In this document: positions 4,419 to 19,258 of the stretch, one piece after another
How positions within the stretch are numbered: the first letter of the stretch is position 1
How the letters are laid out: every line of letters begins with the position of its first letter
DNA from: a bacterium
Lineage (GTDB): Bacteria; Sysuimicrobiota; Sysuimicrobiia; Sysuimicrobiales; Segetimicrobiaceae
Assembly (NCBI GenBank): GCA_035295165.1
Contig: DATGJN010000020.1
Span: forward strand, 1 to 50,491
Length of the DNA stretch: 50,491 nt
Reading direction: 5' to 3'
Notes under the pieces: model-generated
What the model was told of the DNA's origin: nothing
Databases searched by the model: none
What the model saw: only the letters and a program-made list of their open reading frames with translations
Program-made: the position numbers and the translations under genes

Positions 4419-5459
4419 TCAGGGCCGCAAACGCGGCGCGGGCGTCCGTCCGGGAATCCGGCCGCGCTTGGCGATGGGGCGGCCGTTAATCTCGTGAAGA
4501 TCCATCGTCATGTCGATCGGCGACGCGCCGCTCACGTAGCTTCCAACCCCGAACGCGGAGACGCCGGCCTCAATCAGCGCCGGGATCCGTTCCGGCGTGA
4601 CCCCGCCCGACACGAAAATCTGAACGGCCGGATGCCCGGCGAGCGCGAGCCTCGCCCGGACCTCGCGGACGAGGTCCGGGGTAACGCTGCCCCGCTCGCG
4701 GGGCGTGTCGAGCCGGATTGCGGACAGGTCAGGCCCCATCGCCTCGGCGATGCGCACGGCCTCGACCGTCTCGTCCGTGAACGTGTCGACGAGCACGAGC
4801 CGCGGCACCCCGGACGGCATGAGTTCATGATACGCGGTGGCGGCCCGCAGTGTGTCACCGACGAGGAGAATGAATGCGTGCGGCATGGTGCCCACCGGTT
4901 CTTGGCCGGCGAGTTTCGCGCCGAGAATGCATGCGGCGCCGCGCATGCCGCCGACAATCGCCGCGCGCTCCATGACAGGCGCGACGGCCGGGTGGACGTG
5001 GCGCGCACCGAACGAATACACCGGAGTCTCCCCCGCCACCGCAACCACGTGCCGGGCCGCCGTCGCCCAGCCGCTCGGGTGGGAGAGCATCCCGAGAAGC
5101 ACGGTCTCGTACATGCCGAACTGCCCGTATGGCCCCTCGATGCGCATCACCACTTCGCGGGCCGAGAACGTCTCCCCGTCCCGGAGGGACTCGATGAGCA
5201 CCCCGGTGTTTCGCAACAGATAGCGCACCTCGTCCACGCCCGCGAGCACGCCGTCGCTGCTGGCGAAGATCTCCGCCACCACCGGCGTGTCGGCCAACCC
5301 TAAGGATCGGAGAATCTCCAACGTGCGGACGAAATAGATGTCGGTCGTGGCGCCGGCGAGGATCTCCTCGTGCGAGGCGCTGTGGAGGCGATGCTGGGCG
5401 TCGGCGGTGTACCGGCCGACGTCGTCGAGCGATGTGAAGGCGGTCGGCTTCCGCGGCAC
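4419..5459 (-). CDS. pncB: nicotinate phosphoribosyltransferase (short, archaeal-like type)
   Basis: The 346-residue protein would transfer phosphoribose from PRPP to nicotinate in NAD salvage (Preiss-Handler pathway). Family features visible are the N-terminal TTDIYFVRTLEILR segment, the FGARHVHPAVAPVMERAA loop, and the C-terminal barrel motifs RLDTPRERGS and IFVSGGVTPERI ending in FGVGSYVSG. The length fits the short Thermoplasma-like class rather than the longer E. coli PncB. The barrel resembles quinolinate phosphoribosyltransferase (NadC), but the GARHVHP loop and absence of the NadC N-terminal pattern favour PncB. The GTG start at 5459 follows a GAGG-like ribosome site. It is last in the run after secG, with a 14-base gap. 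Confidence 0.85.
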   Translation of the reverse strand: MPRKPTAFTSLDDVGRYTADAQHRLHSASHEEILAGATTDIYFVRTLEILRSLGLADTPVVAEIFASSDGVLAGVDEVRYLLRNTGVLIESLRDGETFSAREVVMRIEGPYGQFGMYETVLLGMLSHPSGWATAARHVVAVAGETPVYSFGARHVHPAVAPVMERAAIVGGMRGAACILGAKLAGQEPVGTMPHAFILLVGDTLRAATAYHELMPSGVPRLVLVDTFTDETVEAVRIAEAMGPDLSAIRLDTPRERGSVTPDLVREVRARLALAGHPAVQIFVSGGVTPERIPALIEAGVSAFGVGSYVSGASPIDMTMDLHEINGRPIAKRGRIPGRTPAPRLRP

Positions 5460-8954: not shown

Positions 8955-9320
8955 CTACGTCTCGCCCGCCTCGAGCGGTGGCGTACGCCACACCAGCCCC
9001 ATGAGGTCCCGGCGGATGAAGCCGATGTTGTTGAAGATCCGGATGCTGAATGCGACCACGGCGCCCAGGTAGATGTCCAGCCCCAGCAGATCGCCGAGCG
9101 CGGTCAGCCCCGCGGCAAACAGGGTATTGACAACGAACCCGGAGAGAAACACGCGCAGGTCGAACCGCCCCTCGAACTGCGCGCGGGCACCTCCGAGCAG
9201 CGTGTCGACCGCCGCGAGGATCGCGATCGCGCTGTACTTGACGTAGGTCAGCGGCACCTGGAAGCTGACGAGCAGCCCCAGGGCGAGGCCGGCCAGCAGC
9301 CCCACGATCGGCAGTACCAT
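8955..9320 (-). CDS. sbp: Sbp (small basic protein, DUF1290) membrane protein
   Basis: A 121-residue integral membrane protein of the DUF1290/Sbp family, of unknown biochemical role. In Bacillus the homologue sits with DUF881 proteins near the division genes. Three hydrophobic segments are visible (about residues 3-20, 24-40 and 62-92), with the family segments TYVKYSAIAILAAVDTLLGG and FSIRIFNNIGFIRRDL. The start at 9320 has an excellent GGAGGTGAGCG ribosome site. It follows the DUF881 gene by 5 bases. Confidence 0.85.
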   Translation of the reverse strand: MVLPIVGLLAGLALGLLVSFQVPLTYVKYSAIAILAAVDTLLGGARAQFEGRFDLRVFLSGFVVNTLFAAGLTALGDLLGLDIYLGAVVAFSIRIFNNIGFIRRDLMGLVWRTPPLEAGET

Positions 9321-9325
9321 CGCGC

Positions 9326-10054
9326 TCACCTCCCCGTGTCGACCGGTGTGGCGAACCGGTGCACAAACGTGCCCGCGTACGCCGACAACCGGACGTCGCT
9401 CTCGACCGCCACCGTGACCGGAAAATCGAACGCGCGCAGCTCGTCGAGAATGCCGCCGCGTGCCGTGACCACGGTCCGCAGCGCGTGCGGATCGCCGATC
9501 GCCTCGATGCGGTACGGCGGCGCGAGCCGGCGCGCGTTGCACAAGATCGTCGTGCCGACGCAGGAGATGCCGGTCGTCCCGACGACACGTTCGCCGTTGA
9601 CGGCGACGGCCTCGGCGCCTCCGGCGAACAGCGCGGCGACGACCGCGTACACGTCGGAGTAGTGGATCAATACCAAGTTCGGATCTTCGCCCGGCCGGAG
9701 CGCGCGCGTGCTGTCGGAGATCGTGACGAGCACGCCCGGCCCGTGCACGGCGCTCAGTCCGGCGAGGGTCCGCATCCGGCTCAGGTCGGCGGCGAGCGCC
9801 GCCGTCGCTTCCCGGCCGGCCGCCGCCCGCTGCTCCTCGTCGGCGATGCCCTGCCGCAGTTCCGCCAGCCGTTCGCGAAGGTCCGCCTGGCGTTGCTCGG
9901 CCTGCTGATAGCGGTACGCCACCTCGCCGAGGCGTCCGGAGGTCACCTGCAGGCTCGTTTCGATCGAGCGCTCCGTGCGCACCTGCACCGCGAGCACGAA
10001 GCCCACGGCAAGCGCAACCGCGGTCAGGCCGATCTGCCAGGAACGCGCCGTCAT
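9326..10054 (-). CDS. DUF881 family membrane-anchored protein (YlxW/YlxX-like)
   Basis: A 242-residue protein with one N-terminal membrane segment (about residues 8-24) and an external part. A coiled coil covers about residues 35-95 (RYQQAEQRQADLRERLAELR). The DUF881 domain contains GPGVLVTISDSTR, the NLVLIHYSDVYAVVAALFAG region and GTTGISCVGTTILCN. YlxW/YlxX homologues are envelope proteins of unknown function placed beside sbp and division genes in Bacillus; here the pair is preserved without division genes. The start at 10054 has a GGAGAG ribosome site. Confidence 0.85.
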   Translation of the reverse strand: MTARSWQIGLTAVALAVGFVLAVQVRTERSIETSLQVTSGRLGEVAYRYQQAEQRQADLRERLAELRQGIADEEQRAAAGREATAALAADLSRMRTLAGLSAVHGPGVLVTISDSTRALRPGEDPNLVLIHYSDVYAVVAALFAGGAEAVAVNGERVVGTTGISCVGTTILCNARRLAPPYRIEAIGDPHALRTVVTARGGILDELRAFDFPVTVAVESDVRLSAYAGTFVHRFATPVDTGR

Positions 10055-10068
10055 CGCCGTCTCTCCGC

Positions 10069-10983
10069 TCACGCGGCTCCGGGGGCCCGACTTTCCTCGC
10101 GGCCGGCGGGCGAGACGCGGAGCATGCCCCACTGCAGTGTGCTCACGGCCTCGACGGAGCGCCGCGGTGCGGCGATGTCCAGCGCGACGCCGCCCGGCCG
10201 CACGCCCAGGACCGTGCCGAGGGCCACCAACCCGCCGTCCGCGTCGGCGAGCCCGACGAGCCGGTGTCGAAGCTCGCGAGCCGGCAATTCGGCGACGATG
10301 CGGGCGGCGGGGACGCGGCGTCCGGCATGGACGACACTCCGCTCCTGCCGCACCGTGTCGAGGTTCAGGGTCAAGGTGCGGGCGTCTCGAAAGTACTGCG
10401 CAAACTGGTGCTCGCGAAACGCCCGGCGCTCCCGGCTCGAGCGCTTCCGCGCCCGCAGATCGGGGCGGAGACGGTGGACCGTCACGCCCCCAGGCATGCG
10501 CGCGAGGATCGCCTCGACCTCTTCGGCGCGCTGGATCGCGACTACGTGCCGCGGCTCCGCCGCACGTACCTCTCGAACCTTGGCTGCGACCGCCGCCGCG
10601 CCCTCGATCCACCCGGTGGTATCGACCACGATCGTCGAGGCGCCGAGCGCCTGCGCCCGCGTGATCAACCGCACGATCCCGTCGACCACGAACCGGTGCG
10701 TGTCGCGGGGAGAGGTGTCGCCGACAAAGTAGGCAGCGCGAAGCGGGATCTCGATCATCCGTCGCACGGGACGGTCCACCATGCCCAATCCAACCGTGGT
10801 GGGCGGGCCCAGATCCGACTGCCCGGTGTCGGCGTCGACGATCGCTGGCCGGCGTCCGGCGCGAACCGCGCCGTTGGCCAGCGCGGTGGCGAATGTCGTT
10901 TTGCCGACGTCCACCGACCCAAGGATCACCACGACGCCTGGCGCGTCCAGGATCGCGCTGATCGCCTTCCGCCACTCCACCAT
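10069..10983 (-). CDS. Clp1/Grc3-like P-loop polynucleotide kinase family protein
   Basis: A 304-residue protein whose N-terminal two thirds match the Clp1 P-loop domain. Walker A is GSVDVGKTTF (residues 22-31), followed by IVDADTGQSDLGPP (about 48-61), the signature of eukaryotic Clp1/Nol9/Grc3 5'-hydroxyl polynucleotide kinases. Further segments are FVGDTSPRDT and VVDTTGWIEG. The last 100 residues form a small beta-rich domain. In eukaryotes and archaea these enzymes phosphorylate RNA 5' ends; the bacterial role is not established. The gene sits between V-ATPase subunit D and the DUF881-sbp pair on the same strand, so it is probably cotranscribed. Confidence 0.8.
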   Translation of the reverse strand: MVEWRKAISAILDAPGVVVILGSVDVGKTTFATALANGAVRAGRRPAIVDADTGQSDLGPPTTVGLGMVDRPVRRMIEIPLRAAYFVGDTSPRDTHRFVVDGIVRLITRAQALGASTIVVDTTGWIEGAAAVAAKVREVRAAEPRHVVAIQRAEEVEAILARMPGGVTVHRLRPDLRARKRSSRERRAFREHQFAQYFRDARTLTLNLDTVRQERSVVHAGRRVPAARIVAELPARELRHRLVGLADADGGLVALGTVLGVRPGGVALDIAAPRRSVEAVSTLQWGMLRVSPAGREESRAPGAA

Positions 10984-11036: not shown

Positions 11037-11681
11037 CTACGTCCCGGACGAGGCTTTGGCCTCCAGCTTCTTCTTGATGCGCTTGAGCCGAAACACGTCC
11101 TCGCGGGCGCGCTGCTCTAGGACGTCGCGGATGTACCGGATCTCGCCCCGGATCCGCGGGATCACCACTTGCTCGAGCGCGTTCACCCGGCGGGTCGTCT
11201 TCTTGATCTCTTCGCCGATCTTGCGGAGCGTCACCTCGGTGCTCGCGACGTCCAGCAGCGCGGCGACGATCTCCTCGAAGTGGTCAGCGCTCTCCACGGT
11301 GCGCGATGTCACCGCCACGGGGTCCTGTCCGCGGGTGAGCACCGTGCGCCGCACTTCGTCCGTGGTAATCGTGGGGATGCGGGTTCCCCACACGTTCCTG
11401 CTGTCGATCCCGACCTCGAGGCGGCGCCCGTCGGCGAGCGCCGCCGACTCAAGCACCTCTCGCCCCTCGACCGCCTTCGCGAGGCTCAGCAGCGTGTAGG
11501 CTTCGCCGGCGGTCTGCATCAACCGCTCGCGCGCAGCGAGCGCGCGCCGGACGATGTTGAAAAAGTCCGCGACCAGCGCGTCGCGCTTGCGCTTCAGCAG
11601 ATCGACCCCCTGCTGCGCCAGTTTGACCTGGTTCTGGCGCTGCAGGAGGTTCATTCGGGTTGGGCTGATCGTATCGGCCAT
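11037..11681 (-). CDS. atpD: A/V-type ATPase subunit D (central stalk)
   Basis: A 214-residue, mostly alpha-helical protein forming the rotor shaft between the A3B3 head and the membrane ring. The N-terminus reads SPTRMNLLQRQNQVKLAQQG and the C-terminal helix RVNALEQVVIPRIRGEIRYI, both typical of subunit D. It is the last gene of the ATPase operon, 78 bases after subunit B. Confidence 0.95.
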   Translation of the reverse strand: MADTISPTRMNLLQRQNQVKLAQQGVDLLKRKRDALVADFFNIVRRALAARERLMQTAGEAYTLLSLAKAVEGREVLESAALADGRRLEVGIDSRNVWGTRIPTITTDEVRRTVLTRGQDPVAVTSRTVESADHFEEIVAALLDVASTEVTLRKIGEEIKKTTRRVNALEQVVIPRIRGEIRYIRDVLEQRAREDVFRLKRIKKKLEAKASSGT

Positions 11682-11759
11682 CGGTGTGCTCGCTCCGCTC
11701 GCCGCCGTGTGTCGCGCGAGACGGGACCTGCGTCCCGCCCGTCGGTGTGGGCGCGCGCG

Positions 11760-13178
11760 CTAGACCCGGATCTCGCCGGGCCGGTAGACCTTCTCCAACT
11801 GCTCCCCGTAGTAGTATTTATCCACGTGATCCTTGCTGATCCGCGTCAGCGCCGTCTTCGGGAACGTCGACAACAGTTTCCAGCCCAGGGTCAGCGAATC
11901 CTCGATAGACCGGTCCGCCCCGCCCTGGTTGATGAACTCCTTCTCGAACCCGTCCGCGAAGCGCAGATACAGACGGTCGTTTTCCGTCAACGCCTCCTCG
12001 CCGATGATCGCGACGAGACGCCGGAGGTCCAGGCCTTGCGCGTACGCCGAGTACAGCTGGTCGGCGACCTGCCGGTGGTCGACACGCGTCCGGCCCTTGC
12101 CGATGCCGTTGTTCATGAGACGCGACAAACTCGGCAGCGGGTTGATCGGCGGGTAGATCCCCTGCCGGTGCAGCGGGCGCGCCAGCACCAGCTGCCCCTC
12201 CGTAATGTACCCGGTCAGGTCGGCGATTGGGTGCGTGATGTCGTCGTCGGGCATCGTCAGAATCGGCACCTGCGTGATCGTCCCCTTCTTGTTCTTCAGA
12301 CGGCCGGCCCGCTCGTAGATGCTGGCGAGGTCGGTGTACATGTAGCCGGGGTAGCCGCGCCGGCCGGGGATCTCTTCGCGCGCGGCGCCGATCTCGCGCA
12401 GCGCCTCACAGTAGTTGGTCATGTCGGTCAAGATCACGAGCACCTGCATGTCGAGTTCGTAGGCGAGGTACTCGGCGACCGTGAGCGCGGCGCGCGGCGT
12501 CATCAGCCGCTCGATCGTCGGATCGTCGGCGAGGTTCATGAACACCACGCTGCGCGCGAGCGCCCCGGTGCTCTCGAACTCGTGGATGAAGAACGACGCC
12601 TCCCGCTGAGTGATCCCCATCGCGCCGAACACCACCGAAAACTGCTCGGCCTCGCCGAGCACCTTCGACTGGCGCGCGATCTGCGCGGCGATTTCGTTCG
12701 CGGGCAGCCCGGCCCCGGAAAAGATCGGCAGCTTCTGCCCCCGCACCAAGGTGTTCATCACGTCCACCGTGGAGATCCCGGTCTGGATGAACTCGGCGGG
12801 CTTCTCCCGCGCGACCGGGTTGATCGGCGCGCCGAGGATCGGGATCCGCTTCTCGGGGATGATCGGCGGCAGCCCGTCGATCGGGTCGCCGAGGCCGTTG
12901 AACCGGCGCCCGATCATCTCGCGGCTGACCGCGATCCGGGCGACGTCCTCGCGCAGACTGAGCGACGTCTTGGCGAGGTCCATCCCGCGCGTCTCCTCGA
13001 ACACCTGAATCACCGCGTTCCGGGTGGAGACCTCGATCACCTGTCCGCCGCGGACGCTGCCGTCCTGGACGTGGATCTCAACGATCGCCCCGTACGACAG
13101 GTCCTTCGCGCCCTCGACGAACAACAGCGGTCCCGAGATGTAGTTGATGCTGGTATAGCGCTTAGTCGCCAGGTTCAT
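11760..13178 (-). CDS. atpB: A/V-type ATPase subunit B (non-catalytic)
   Basis: A 472-residue regulatory nucleotide-binding subunit of the A3B3 head. It lacks a normal Walker A; the equivalent loop reads [10 protein letters not shown], as in V-type B subunits. The [13 protein letters not shown] and [14 protein letters not shown] segments are conserved. The ATG at 13178 overlaps the stop of subunit A by four bases (ATGA). The frame runs much further upstream only because it overlays subunit A in another phase. Confidence 0.97.
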
Positions 13179-14977
13179 CGGACTCCCTCCTTCGCCGCGG
13201 CGCCGCGCTGCCCGTCGCCGCCCGCAGCCGCCCCCGCGTGCCCCTTGAACGCCGCGGGCAGCTCCCGCAAGAACTCGTCGATGACGGTCTTGAACTTGTC
13301 GTTTGGCACTTCCTTGAACCGGGCGATCTGTTCGTTCTGCGGCAGATTGAGCATCTCGTCGATCGTCATATCCCCTTTGAGCGCGACGCCCGCGGCTTCG
13401 TAGAACGCCCGCATCCCGCGAACCATCCAATACGCCTTCTCCAGCGTGCACGAGGCGTCCACCTCGCTGAACGCGCTCTGCTGGAGGAAGAACTCGCGGA
13501 TCATCCGGCCGAGCTCGATCACCAGCCGCTCGTCGTCCTGCAACGCATCCGGCCCCACGAGCTGGACCACTTCCTGCAGGCCGGCCTCGCGGGCCAGGAT
13601 CGCGCTCAACCAGCTCCGCTGCTCGGTGAAGTCCTTCGCCACGTTCTCGGCGTACCAGGCGTTGAGCAGGCTCTCGTACAGGCTGTAGGACCGGTTCCAG
13701 TTGATCGACGGGAAGTGCCGCCGGTAGGCGAGCTGCGCGTCCAACGACCAGAACGCGCCCACGATCCGCAGCGTGCTCTGCGTCACCGGCTCCGACAGGT
13801 CGCCGCCCGGCGGCGATACCGCGCCGACCACCGTCACGGCGCCGACGCGCTGGTCCTTGCCGAGCACGACCGCGCGGCCGGCCCGCTCGTAGAACGCGGA
13901 CAGCCGGCTGGCGAGGTACGGCGGGTAGCCTTCCTCCGCCGGCATCTCCTCCAGCCGGGAGGAGATCTCGCGCAGCGCTTCGGCCCAGCGGCTCGTGGAA
14001 TCGGCCATCAACGCGACGCGGTAGCCCATGTCGCGGAAGTACTCCGCCATCGTGACGCCGGTATAAATGCTCGCCTCGCGGGCCGCGACGGGCATGTTCG
14101 AGGTGTTCGCGACCAGGATCGTCCGCTCCATGAGCGGGCGTCCGTTCCGCGGGTCCTCGAGCTCGGGGAACTCGGTCAGCACGTCGGTCATCTCGTTCCC
14201 GCGCTCGCCGCAGCCGACGTAGACGATGATGTCCGCGTTCGACCACTTGGACAGCGTCTGCTGCACGACCGTCTTCCCGCTGCCGAACGGCCCGGGCACC
14301 GCCGCCGTCCCTCCCATCGCCACCGGGAACAGGACGTCCAGCACCCGCTGCCCGGTCACGAACAGCTCCGTCGGCTCCAGCTTCCGCGCGGCGGGGCGCG
14401 GCACGCGCACCGGCCACGTGGTCATCATGCGGAGCTCGATCCCGCCCTTCAGCCGCGCGACGACGTCGGTCACCTTGAACTCGCCGCCTCTGATCTCGGC
14501 GAGCTCGTCCTCGGCGACGTCCGGGGGGACCATGATCCGGTGCGCGTACGAGTACTCCTGCACCTCGCCGATCACGTCGCCCGGCCCGACCCGGTCGCCC
14601 GCCTTGGCCTTCGGCACGAACGTCCACTTCCGCTCCCGATCCAGGGAGTTCACGACGACGCCGCGCGAAATGAAGTCGCCTTGGGCCTCGCGGATCTTGT
14701 CGAGCGGGCGCTGGATGCCGTCGTAGATGCTGCTCAGCATCCCGGGGCCCAGTTCGAGCTGCAAGGGCGCATCGGTGGACTCCACCGGCTCGCCGACGAA
14801 CAGCCCCGAGGTATCCTCGTACACCTGCACGAACGCCGTGTCCCCGTCCAGCCGGATGATCTCGCCGATCAGCTTCTCCCGGCCCACCCGCACGATGTCG
14901 TACATGCGCGCGCCGGCCAGGCCGTGGGCGATCACCGCCGGGCCCGAGATGCGCGTAATCTCGCCTACGACCGCCAT
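13175..14977 (-). CDS. atpA: A/V-type ATPase subunit A (catalytic)
   Basis: A 600-residue catalytic subunit. Walker A is [12 protein letters not shown] (near residue 230), with the catalytic Glu in GCGERGNEM and [16 protein letters not shown] downstream. The approximately 90-residue non-homologous insertion typical of A/V-type A subunits precedes the P-loop ([15 protein letters not shown]). The ATG at 14977 has a GGGGAGGACGG ribosome site. The tail after about residue 580 is Ala/Gly-rich and non-conserved. Confidence 0.97.
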
Positions 14978-15011
14978 GGGTCCGTCCTCCCCGCGGAATG
15001 CGACTCCGTCC

Positions 15012-15329
15012 TCACTTGAGCTTCACGTAGAATCCGATGTGCTCTTTCACGAGGCGGGCGATGTACGCCTCCCCGCTCTCCATCTCCACCCGGGCCGGCG
15101 GCAGCGGCACGACGATCGGCAGATCCCGGCCGCGCAGGAGCCGGGCGCGCGCCTCGTCGGTGCCGGCGAGCAGGTCCTCGTTCACCGCGACGACGCCGTA
15201 CCCCGCCGCGATGCACGCCTGGAGCTCTTCGAGGGCACGGGCGGGCGTGTCCGCCTCGCGCACTTCCACCCCGGCGAGACGGAACCCCGTCGCCGTCTCG
15301 CCGTCGGTGATCACCGCCATCTTATACAT
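15012..15329 (-). CDS. atpF: A/V-type ATPase subunit F
   Basis: A 105-residue small rotor protein that binds subunit D and modulates activity. The [20 protein letters not shown] start and the [10 protein letters not shown] and LPIVVPLPP segments are typical of the family. It overlaps the end of subunit C by 8 bases and lies 34 bases before subunit A. Confidence 0.93.
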
Positions 15330-16341
15330 TCACGAGCTCCCGGCGCGCGACGTCCTCGGGAATGCCGAGTTGGCGCGCGTGCGCGACGACGCGCAGGTTG
15401 CTGACCTCGGCGCCCTTCCGCGCGAGGTATCCGATCACCACGTCCAGCGCGAGCGGATCCCCCATGTACATCCGGGCGGTCATCCGCACGAACGACTGGT
15501 CGATCGCCCGTTCCATCTCCGGCAGATCCTCGGTCCCGGTCAGGTCGGCGCCGAACAGCCGCATCGTCGCGACCTCGGAGAGGCTCGACTGCGGATCGGC
15601 GAGCGTGAGAAAGCGCTCCAGCGGCAACGATCCCCCCGAGACGAAGAACCGCTCCCGCTCCTCGCGGGGCAGGTCCTTGATCCGGCGCAGCTTGAGCGCC
15701 GTCTTCAGGTTGGTCATCGTGACCTCCGCCAGGAGGTACCGGCGGAGCGCGGACTCGCCCTCGGTGTCGGCGATCCGCATGCCGTACCGGACGTAGGCGC
15801 GGTCGAGCGCCATCTCCACGTCGAGCAAGCTGCCGCCGCGCTGCGCCGCGTCCACGCCTTCCCGCAGCGCACGGGCGAGCGGGTGCATCCACGTAACGAG
15901 CGTATCCGCGATCGCCTTGAGGTCCGGCTGCTGCAGCAGTTCCTTGAGCTTCACCTCGCTCAAGAGGCCCCCCGGAAACAGCGTGCCGAGGATCTCCTCC
16001 TGGCTTCGCCCCGTGGACTTCCCCCGGATGATCGCCCGGATGTTCTGCAGATCGTACCGCAGCAGCACGACCTCGATCACGTCCCGGGGAGTGCCGTCCG
16101 CGAAACTCAGGATGCGTTGGGTCGTGTGGTAGAAGTTCTGCGACAACGCTTCGTCGACCGCCCGCACGCCGGCGAAGCGGCTCAGCGCCTCCTGCAGCTC
16201 GAGGTTGTACGGGGTGTCGGCCAGCGCCTGGATGACCGCCTCCAGGTCGGGGGCGTGGAGGAGCTCCTCGGCGCGTCCCGGCGGAAGCAGACGGGATTTC
16301 ATGACCTTGACGCGCGCGTTGATGTACGCGAAGTCGCCCAT
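15322..16341 (-). CDS. atpC: A/V-type ATPase subunit C (d-type rotor adaptor)
   Basis: A 339-residue helical, funnel-shaped adaptor that couples the central stalk to the K ring. The start FAYINARVKVMKSRLL and the repeated helical modules (YDLQNIRAIIRGKSTGR and later EVTMTNLKTALKLRRIKDL) match the family. The start at 16341 is chosen for its conserved N-terminus; the longer frame overlaps subunit E. Expected order E-C-F is present. Confidence 0.93.
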   Translation of the reverse strand: MGDFAYINARVKVMKSRLLPPGRAEELLHAPDLEAVIQALADTPYNLELQEALSRFAGVRAVDEALSQNFYHTTQRILSFADGTPRDVIEVVLLRYDLQNIRAIIRGKSTGRSQEEILGTLFPGGLLSEVKLKELLQQPDLKAIADTLVTWMHPLARALREGVDAAQRGGSLLDVEMALDRAYVRYGMRIADTEGESALRRYLLAEVTMTNLKTALKLRRIKDLPREERERFFVSGGSLPLERFLTLADPQSSLSEVATMRLFGADLTGTEDLPEMERAIDQSFVRMTARMYMGDPLALDVVIGYLARKGAEVSNLRVVAHARQLGIPEDVARRELVNV

Positions 16342-16369
16342 CGGCCTCGACGTCAGCGGCTGCGGGGGC

Positions 16370-16954
16370 TCACGCGCCCCACAGCACCTCCGCGACCCGG
16401 GAGACCAGTTCGCGCCGCGCGCGGGCGAGCCGACCGGGCAGCATGTTCTCAATGATCGCCCGTCCGTCCTGGCTCACGAGACGGACGCCGTCCCGCACGC
16501 CGGGAGCTTCTCGCACCTCCGCGTCGAGACCGAGCTCTCGCACGACCTCGCGGGCCGCGTCCGCGTCCCCAGGGGAGACCTCCACCGCGACACGCCCGCC
16601 GGAGACCCCCCGCGCCGCCTCCCGGAGCAGAGCGCGGATCATCGCCCGCCGGCGCGCCGGATCGGCCGCCGCGGCGCGCACCTCCGCCTCCGCGCGCTCG
16701 AACACCGCGCGGATGCCCTCGTCCTTCGCCGCGAGCACGAGCGCCGCCGCCCGCAGGCTGGCGGTGCTGGTGGCGCGAGCGTGCTCCTGCGCGCGCTCTC
16801 CCTCCAACCGGTGCCGGCCCGCCGCCAGCGCCTCCTCGGCCTCGCGGCGCCCGGCCGCGAGGATCTCCTCCGCCCGCGCCCGGGCCTCGCCGAGGGCCTT
16901 GTCCTTCTCGGCCCTCGCCTCCCGTTCGAGCAGCTGGCTCAGCTCGGATCCCAT
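16370..16954 (-). CDS. atpE: A/V-type ATPase subunit E (peripheral stalk)
   Basis: A 194-residue protein with a long charged N-terminal coiled coil (about residues 1-75, rich in Ala, Glu and Arg) and a globular C-terminal domain ending GRAIIENMLPGRLARARREL. It pairs with subunit G/H to form the stator that holds the head. It starts 25 bases after subunit K. Confidence 0.9.
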   Translation of the reverse strand: MGSELSQLLEREARAEKDKALGEARARAEEILAAGRREAEEALAAGRHRLEGERAQEHARATSTASLRAAALVLAAKDEGIRAVFERAEAEVRAAAADPARRRAMIRALLREAARGVSGGRVAVEVSPGDADAAREVVRELGLDAEVREAPGVRDGVRLVSQDGRAIIENMLPGRLARARRELVSRVAEVLWGA

Positions 16955-16979
16955 GAGATCGTTCGCCCCCGGGATCGGG

Positions 16980-17303
16980 CTACAGCTTCCCGTACAGGAA
17001 GAACGCCATCACGAACCCGAAGATGACCAGCGTCTCCGGAAGCACGAACAGCACCAGCATCAGTCCGAACATCTCCGGCCGCTCGGCGATCACGCCCGCC
17101 GCCGCACCCAGGATGCGGGACTGTGCGATGCCGGTACCGACGGCGCCCAGGCCGATCGCCAATCCGACGCCGATGCCCATCGCGCCCGCGCCGGGGCTGA
17201 CCTCCGGTTTTGCCCCCGCCTGTTGCGCCGACGCGGCCAGCGAGAATCCGATCACGAACAGCGCCGCGACGGTCAGAGCGAGCAGGACATTCCGTTGCCT
17301 CAC
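16980..17303 (-). CDS. atpK: A/V-type ATPase subunit K (membrane proteolipid)
   Basis: A 107-residue single-hairpin proteolipid. Residues 1-29 form an apparent cleavable leader (ALFVIGFSLAASAQQ). The two rotor helices follow, with the ion-carrying Glu in VLPETLVIFGF and a Gln in the first helix (GTGIAQSR). The GTG at 17303 overlaps the stop of subunit I (GTGA). The Q plus ET pattern occurs in both sodium- and proton-type V-ATPases, so ion choice is open. Confidence 0.92.
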   Translation of the reverse strand: MRQRNVLLALTVAALFVIGFSLAASAQQAGAKPEVSPGAGAMGIGVGLAIGLGAVGTGIAQSRILGAAAGVIAERPEMFGLMLVLFVLPETLVIFGFVMAFFLYGKL

Positions 17304-19258
17304 GAGACTCCACCTCCGGTACGTTGGAATGGGCGATAGCGGTGCCCGGTGTCCTGGTAGTACTTGAACGCGGAGAAGAACTCGACCCAGAAAAGACGTG
17401 CCGGCTGCAGAATATGCCCGATCAGCGTGAGGCCGAAGAACAGCATGTGGCCGAGCGCGCCGACGAGCACGCCCAACACGAGAACCGCGAACCCGCTCCC
17501 GAGCTGGTTCGCCACGTTCGCGAGCGCCACGGACGCCATCCCGACCGCGAAGATTCGCGCGTACGAGATGAACGCGCCAAACGTGGAAATCGACTCCATG
17601 ACCCACATCAGGCTGGAGAGCGACACGGAGAGGACGAGCGCGAGCAGGAACACGACCGCGCTGACGAGCATCACGGGACTGAAGAAGCTCGACGGGAGCA
17701 CGTGGACCTGGGTCGCCATCCACAGGAAGACCGTGGTTCCGCCCCCGATGAGCGCGAGCGCCTCGAGGAGGTCCTTGCGGTGCCGGTGCCTGACCGCCTT
17801 GGCGATGTGCATCACTTGACCGAGGTAGACCTGCACGAGGCCGAACCCGATCGACAGGTACAGGTACGTGGTCAGGTTCTCGATCCGGTCGAACATCGGG
17901 TGGAACCCCGGGAAGAGCCGTTCCGGCAGATACCCGAAGAACTCCCCAAAGACCACGCCGAACACCATCGTCCACGCGGTCATCCAGCCGAGCAGCGTGG
18001 CCACCTGACGGAGGATGGGCACCGGCAGCGTGAATCCGAAATCCATGCCGGCGATGACCGCGCGCCACGGCCGACCCAATCTCGCCCGCGAGGCGAAGAA
18101 CAGCGTGATCGCGAGCAGGAGCAACCCGTACCCGACGTCCCCGATGATCAACCCCACCCACAGGGGCATGCCGACCGCGAAGAAGATCGTGGGGTCAAAC
18201 GTCCCGTACTTGGGCGGATCGAAGATGGCGAGAAACAGCTGGAACGGCTTGACCCACCCCGGGTTGTCGAGCAGCACCGGCACCTGTTCCGCGTGGTGGA
18301 TCGGCGCCGGCTCATGGAACACGAACACGTCGGCGCCGAAGCGCTTGCGCAGCGCGGTGCGGATCGCCCCGACCTGACGCGTCGGCGCCCAGCCGTACAG
18401 GGTGAACGTATAGCGCGATTGCGGGATCTGCAGCATCAGCTCGAACCGATGCACCGCGTCCCGCGCGACGGTCGCGATCGCGGCCACCTCGGCGCGCCAC
18501 TTGCGCGACAGATGCATCAGCCCGGCGCGCAGGTTCTCGAGTTCCCCCGGCAGACGGCGGCCGCGTTCTTGCAGATACGGCACGGCCTCGCCGAGCGGCT
18601 TTCCCTGGACGCTGGCCGGGAGCCGGAGCTCGCTGGCGCCCGCCCGCGTGAGGGCCCCGCGCACGGCCTCGGCATCCTCGGCCGTAAACGCCACCACCAC
18701 GCCCACCCGCCGGTCGTCCACCTGGCGGGCGACGAACGCCGCGCGTCCGTGGGTCGCCTGCGCCAGCTCGGTGCGCAGCGCCTCGACCGCGCCCGCCTTC
18801 GCCTCGAGGACGAACCCCGCCGCGTTCACGCGCGTGCTCGTCTCGAGGAGCGCGAGCAACGGCCCCAGCGCTTCGATCGCCGGCCCGTAGGCCCGGAGCA
18901 GCTCGAGCTCTTCCTCCGCATCCAGCAGCCGACGGGTGAGGTCCTTCGCCTCCGCGTCGATCGGCTCGACGCGCCGGCGAAGGGCATCCGGGGACTGGCT
19001 CAGGAACGCGGCAGTGTCGACGATGGGGATCTCGATTGCGGGAAGCAGGGCCAGCACGCCCTCCGACAACGCGCGCAGGGCGTCCCAGCTGGCGCGGTCG
19101 GCCTGGTCGGCGTCCGACAACTCACGCGGCGCGAACGTCTCGTCGGCCGCGCGGACGTGGTCGACGTGGAGCGCGCCGAGTTCCTGGACCGCCTCCACGA
19201 CGTCCCGCTGAAGCCGCCGGGGCCCGAGCACCGTGATCCGGCTCATGGACACAATCAT
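17300..19258 (-). CDS. atpI: A/V-type ATPase subunit I (membrane stator, a subunit)
   Basis: A 652-residue protein with a cytoplasmic half (about residues 1-350) and a membrane half with about seven or eight segments. The membrane half contains FFAVGMPLWVGLIIGDVGYG and SISTFGAFISYARIFAVGMA, which includes the conserved half-channel Arg. The C-terminus reads FWVEFFSAFKYYQDTG. It forms the ion half-channels facing the K ring. Its ATG overlaps the stop of the upstream G/H gene by four bases, supporting the start at 19258 over MSRITVLGP four codons later. Confidence 0.95.
   Translation of the reverse strand: MIVSMSRITVLGPRRLQRDVVEAVQELGALHVDHVRAADETFAPRELSDADQADRASWDALRALSEGVLALLPAIEIPIVDTAAFLSQSPDALRRRVEPIDAEAKDLTRRLLDAEEELELLRAYGPAIEALGPLLALLETSTRVNAAGFVLEAKAGAVEALRTELAQATHGRAAFVARQVDDRRVGVVVAFTAEDAEAVRGALTRAGASELRLPASVQGKPLGEAVPYLQERGRRLPGELENLRAGLMHLSRKWRAEVAAIATVARDAVHRFELMLQIPQSRYTFTLYGWAPTRQVGAIRTALRKRFGADVFVFHEPAPIHHAEQVPVLLDNPGWVKPFQLFLAIFDPPKYGTFDPTIFFAVGMPLWVGLIIGDVGYGLLLLAITLFFASRARLGRPWRAVIAGMDFGFTLPVPILRQVATLLGWMTAWTMVFGVVFGEFFGYLPERLFPGFHPMFDRIENLTTYLYLSIGFGLVQVYLGQVMHIAKAVRHRHRKDLLEALALIGGGTTVFLWMATQVHVLPSSFFSPVMLVSAVVFLLALVLSVSLSSLMWVMESISTFGAFISYARIFAVGMASVALANVANQLGSGFAVLVLGVLVGALGHMLFFGLTLIGHILQPARLFWVEFFSAFKYYQDTGHRYRPFQRTGGGVS

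Follow-up and report, generated by a model that had tools for sequence, protein, structure and literature searches.

A conserved Clp1-family polynucleotide kinase gene in the bacterial family Segetimicrobiaceae and its possible role in RNA decay

The window analyzed here is a 50,491-nucleotide stretch from the genome of a soil-dwelling, uncultured member of the family Segetimicrobiaceae (phylum Sysuimicrobiota), and positions 10069-10983 of its minus strand hold an open reading frame (P0001) with an ATG start that encodes a 304-aa protein of the Clp1 family of polynucleotide 5'-kinases. The Pfam profile CLP1_P matched this protein with an E-value of 1.1e-41 (143 bits; cut-off, 26.6) over profile positions 1-187 of 188, i.e., a full-length kinase domain, and the protein was the sole match above the family cut-off in the whole 4.79 Mb genome. 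The closest sequence in the Protein Data Bank was that of human Clp1 (E = 2.3e-14), followed by C. elegans Clp1, NOL9, and Grc3. NCBIfam yielded no fitting model for the protein; its ParA and MinD models, whose cut-offs are 180 or higher, scored ~19-20 bits.

The gene lies between other genes of the same strand. Upstream is a gene for subunit D of a V/A-type ATPase (11037-11681, minus strand; PF01813, E = 9.7e-52), and downstream are genes for a DUF881 protein (9326-10054, minus strand; PF05949, E = 2.3e-38) and the small basic protein Sbp, or DUF1290 (8955-9320, minus strand; PF06947, E = 4.4e-30), as a preliminary description of this DNA had it. Subunit D is separated from the kinase gene by 53 nt and the kinase gene from DUF881 by 14 nt. 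Since all three genes are on one strand and neither gap contains a terminator-like site on that strand, their cotranscription is plausible. No promoter-like sites were found near the kinase gene by a search that carries little information in a high-GC genome. This genome encodes ATPase subunit D once more at a separate location (G000:C10:3042-3662, minus strand), at 59% identity. After the glycolysis genes, window positions 4419-5459 (minus strand) hold a quinolinate/nicotinate phosphoribosyltransferase-like gene (QRPTase N and C domains) that was also present in 8 of 11 relatives' stretches, the remaining three ending before its place.

To describe the active site, we aligned 11 Segetimicrobiaceae kinase proteins, i.e., the window's and 10 relatives that are 50-65% identical to it, and scored the patterns given in PMC6777427, with Walker B in a looser form. 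All 11 proteins carry the Walker A pattern GxxxxGK[ST]; in the window this P-loop reads GSVDVGKTT (residues 22-30; 10894-10920, minus strand), with G22, G27, K28, and T29 invariant. Walker B of the Clp1 family is defined as [D/E]hhQ (PMC6777427), and the window protein has D52-T-G-Q55 within the region DADTGQ (residues 50-55; 10819-10836, minus strand), where D50, D52, G54, and Q55 are invariant and the looser [DE]xxQ occurs in 11/11 proteins. Both motif strings quoted in the preliminary description, GSVDVGKTT and DADTGQSD (residues 50-57), are thus present. The clasp, [T/S/L]xGW, is T122-T-G-W125 (10609-10620, minus strand) and is likewise invariant in the 11 proteins, as are the lid arginines R181, R186, and R190 (10414-10443, minus strand), the first two of which form the RxxxxR pattern and all three of which have aligned arginine counterparts in C. 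elegans Clp1. The conservation analysis of lid and substrate-clamp residues that had been proposed as a check therefore found catalytic, clasp, and lid residues intact in all 11 family proteins. Among 72 relatives outside Segetimicrobiaceae, Walker A and Walker B were each found in 72, the clasp in 45, and the lid in 28; fixed motif search ranges may explain part of the clasp and lid shortfall.

A structure model of the protein, built with the alignment of the 11 family members (mean pLDDT, 90.3; pTM, 0.90), was compared with known structures by Foldseek and VIA-align. The best matches were human Clp1 (8hmy; Z = 28.3 over 274 residues, rmsd 2.9) and C. elegans Clp1 (4ohv to 4oi1; Z = 26.0-27.5 over 280-281 residues), with alignments spanning both the kinase and the C-terminal domain of the model. 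Grc3 scored 20.0-23.4 and NOL9 18.0, whereas SRP/FtsY GTPases aligned with the kinase domain only (Z of at most 13.1, over 146 residues, and alignments of ~150 residues or less). These scores, together with the sequence matches, support a protein nearer to Clp1 than to Grc3 and bear out the original assignment as a Clp1/Grc3-like polynucleotide kinase homologue. The contrary outcome that had been considered, i.e., an unrelated SIMIBI NTPase that had lost the catalytic residues, did not materialize. Membership in the other SIMIBI families (SRP, FtsY, and MinD) found no support, with MinD and ParA far below their cut-offs and SRP/FtsY at Z = 13.1 against 28.3 for Clp1.

Residues ~200-298 of the model (10090-10386, minus strand) form a predicted C-terminal beta domain. 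In profile-profile comparison this region matched the C-terminus of archaeal Clp1 (probability, 97.0; E = 8e-11) and the C-terminal part of two sets of bacterial relatives (probabilities, 97.3 and 98.0). A kinase domain followed by a C-terminal domain is the archaeal-type make-up of Clp1, and bacterial Clp1 is said in PMC6777427 to lack the archaeal C-terminal domain; as worded there, the statement does not hold for the 304-aa protein. The eukaryotic N-terminal domain is absent, since only ~16 residues precede the first strand of the P-loop domain in the model.

These features allow comparison with known relatives. Human and C. elegans Clp1, although the best structural matches over the kinase and C-terminal domains, have the eukaryotic N-terminal domain that the window protein lacks, and we know of no reason to expect TSEN or Pcf11 partners in a bacterium. 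Grc3 and NOL9 share the superfamily and fold but score lower, are larger proteins, have Las1 as a partner, and are not the nearest group. The archaeal Clp1 of Pyrococcus horikoshii (Jain and Shuman, 2009, as cited in PMC6777427) has, like the window protein, a kinase and a C-terminal domain without a eukaryote-type N-terminal one. The archaeal Clp1 proteins that we sampled differ in the domain of life of their hosts, and most are longer proteins that carry additional residues ahead of the kinase domain. The Clp1 of the bacterium Thermus scotoductus has the same kinase domain and motifs and also lacks an N-terminal domain, but as described in PMC6777427 it is only about 27 kDa, with no C-terminal domain and a less conserved lid, whereas the window protein has a C-terminal domain and a conserved lid.

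Within Sysuimicrobiota the kinase gene was found in 12 of 43 genomes, comprising 12/12 from Segetimicrobiaceae and 0/31 from outside that family. Relatives of the window's gene occupy the corresponding position in 11 other genomes, and ANGP1 genomes and genomes of the Centralia soil project are among the records that carry it; Segetimicrobiaceae is described as the most abundant Sysuimicrobiota family in soils (PMC11604079). Eight pairs of Segetimicrobiaceae kinase genes gave dN/dS ratios of 0.18-0.36 (Nei-Gojobori), showing that the gene is under purifying selection. Considering the profile score, the relatives at the same place, and these ratios, the match to the Clp1 family is not a chance one, and the Clp1 kinase gene of Segetimicrobiaceae is real and complete-looking. 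Clp1-type kinase genes were already known from scattered bacteria, just 14 bearers having been counted among 1,543 complete bacterial genomes (PMC6777427); to these the present data add an entire, uncultured bacterial family in which a two-domain Clp1 is fixed and apparently intact. In a quick tree, the 11 Segetimicrobiaceae proteins formed a single group with full support at the end of a long stem. The tree placed them beside Methanophagales-type archaea without starred support, and an alternative clade with six Bacillota proteins was not rejected and scored slightly better (p = 0.57). Presence and absence alone may fit a gain in Segetimicrobiaceae as well as a loss in the other families. A search of plasmids gave no match to the 304-aa protein.

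The preliminary description had also called the kinase gene cotranscribed with envelope and ATPase genes, and the kinase might be supposed to serve the V-ATPase/envelope/glycolysis operon, e.g., in ATPase assembly or regulation. Indeed, the kinase gene directly follows ATPase subunit D in 12/12 Segetimicrobiaceae genomes, and the gaps that flank it in the window are short. After the kinase come DUF881, Sbp, and GAPDH in 7 of the 12 genomes and GAPDH directly in the other five (genus g4). However, the same gene order exists without the kinase. From other Sysuimicrobiota families we took 12 stretches, two of which end shortly after subunit D; Clp1 was absent from all 10 readable ones. Nine of the 10 keep the order subunit D-DUF881-Sbp-GAPDH-PGK-TPI, in which 55-228 nt separate the aligned portion of subunit D from that of DUF881, and the tenth (L117) reads subunit D-Sbp-GAPDH-PGK-TPI. 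The order is therefore independent of the kinase. Moreover, in G026 and G027, two genomes that belong to the same genus as the window's, the kinase, at 65% identity to the window protein, stands beside a different ATPase, with subunits A, I, and D only 55-57%, 28-29%, and 37% identical, respectively. Outside Segetimicrobiaceae, one of 74 Clp1 loci gave a weak match to subunit K, and the other ATPase and glycolysis queries gave none. Since related families keep the same neighbors without the kinase, the ATPase and glycolysis genes say little about its job. A functional tie to the V-ATPase or envelope genes was accordingly rejected, and a part for the kinase in their operon, largely refuted already, is very improbable. 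The ATPase operons of G026 (G026:C67; L022) and G027 (G027:C74; L023) occupy the same chromosomal place as window positions 11037-19258, a pattern that resembles in situ replacement of the entire ATPase.

The gene product is likely a working Clp1-type kinase that would transfer the gamma phosphate of ATP to a 5'-hydroxyl RNA end, judging from homology to assayed relatives, a bacterial one among them: Clp1 of T. scotoductus is an active RNA 5'-kinase (Saito, 2019; PMC6777427). Its substrates are probably single strands and, weakly, DNA. That bacterial members have no settled function, as first described, thus remains true of their biological role but not of their kinase activity, which is known for the T. 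scotoductus protein (PMC6777427). Yeast Clp1 is a case in which the fold has outlived the activity (PMC6777427), and the window protein could, as yeast Clp1 does in mRNA 3'-end processing, act as a kinase-dead regulatory or scaffold NTPase. That all four motifs are kept in 11/11 family proteins at 50-65% identity argues against this, leaving it improbable; an NTPase that has diverged away from kinase function is less likely than a kinase, given that the catalytic, clasp, and lid residues are all preserved. An active kinase could instead heal 5'-hydroxyl ends of RNA (or DNA) for an ATP-dependent ligase that joins 5'-phosphate and 3'-hydroxyl ends. The chemistry would be the same as that of known repair kinases, for which T4 Pnkp with Rnl1 and the bacterial Pnkp-Hen1 system are precedents, and a DNA ligase is presumably encoded in the window's genome. 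DNA is a further substrate of archaeal and bacterial Clp1 (PMC6777427). However, no PF09414 RNA ligase was found in the 12 Segetimicrobiaceae genomes, the 6 of 31 other Sysuimicrobiota genomes that have one are all without the kinase, and no PNKP-type ligase was found in the window's own genome, so that we regard repair as rather unlikely. A search for T4 Rnl1-type ligases matched nothing anywhere, controls included, and hence is no evidence of absence.

Over repair by a kinase-ligase pair we tentatively favor a role in passing cleaved RNA to decay, a reading that we hold at somewhat short of even. RNase J prefers a 5'-monophosphate. Endonucleases and toxins would leave RNA fragments with 5'-hydroxyl ends, on which the kinase would act by giving them a 5'-phosphate. 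This would take them away from the ligase RtcB, which needs a 5'-hydroxyl, and turn them into substrates for 5'-phosphate-dependent decay, such as that by RNase J; the kinase would not be partnered with a ligase as in classical kinase-ligase repair. In animals, Clp1 phosphorylation has been discussed as a pathway competing with RtcB (PMC13247085). We prefer decay because a 5'-phosphate would lead away from RtcB, the only RNA ligase found among the types searched, and toward 5'-phosphate-dependent decay, and because the Segetimicrobiaceae genomes lack PF09414 ligases while 12/12 have RNase J, encoded on contig C19 in the window's own genome (G000), and 8/12 have RtcB. RNase J was found in only 8/31 other Sysuimicrobiota genomes (Fisher p = 8e-6), a difference to which we give little weight as the test treats related genomes as independent; with the kinase limited to a single family, the joint occurrence of kinase and RNase J amounts to one evolutionary event. 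RtcB, present in 27/31 other Sysuimicrobiota genomes, showed no association with the kinase (Fisher p = 0.19) and was rejected as a partner or required antagonist. It was not found in 4 of the 12 kinase-bearing genomes, two of which are over 95% complete, and so cannot be the kinase's sole reason. Outside the phylum's kinase-bearing family, 29/32 other Clp1-bearing bacteria have RtcB, a count without a matched base rate. To our knowledge, bacteria lack eukaryotic tRNA splicing, mRNA 3'-end factors, and Las1. Since the rest of Sysuimicrobiota is without the kinase and Segetimicrobiaceae lack the PF09414 ligase but have RNase J, the family offers a clean case in which to ask what purpose a Clp1 kinase has without those systems.

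Loci from other lineages hint that bacterial Clp1 may belong to nucleic-acid turnover. At 32 bacterial Clp1 loci outside Segetimicrobiaceae, several of them from related organisms, we collected the same-strand proteins lying up to two genes from Clp1 and analyzed 80 of the 84. These included nine RecJ-family nucleases, four adenosine deaminases, and three YhaM 3'-5' exoribonucleases, and Pfam matches were to DHH (seven), HD (three), and SIR2 (two); these nuclease neighbors occur in lineages other than the window's and not beside its own kinase gene. It is possible, though slightly less likely than a decay role in Segetimicrobiaceae, that bacterial Clp1 in general is a switch committing cleaved RNA to decay, denying 5' ends to RtcB and licensing 5'-phosphate-dependent nucleases. 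The licensed nucleases would be RNase J here and the RecJ-like DHH nucleases encoded beside Clp1 in other phyla. A limited literature search turned up no paper on Clp1 with RNase J, nor on an RNA kinase together with RNase J and 5'-hydroxyl decay. In a profile search, a protein of ~135 aa was encoded directly before Clp1 at 10 of the 32 loci (L061, L069, L072, L075, L083, L086, L087, L089, L094, and L102), which come from several bacterial phyla; the two members scanned had no Pfam match. The gene for this protein often follows that for a RecJ-like DHH nuclease or an adenosine deaminase. In three Bacillota (L038, L041, and L042), Clp1 lies downstream of a YhaM-type OB-HD 3'-5' exoribonuclease, near a SIR2 protein.
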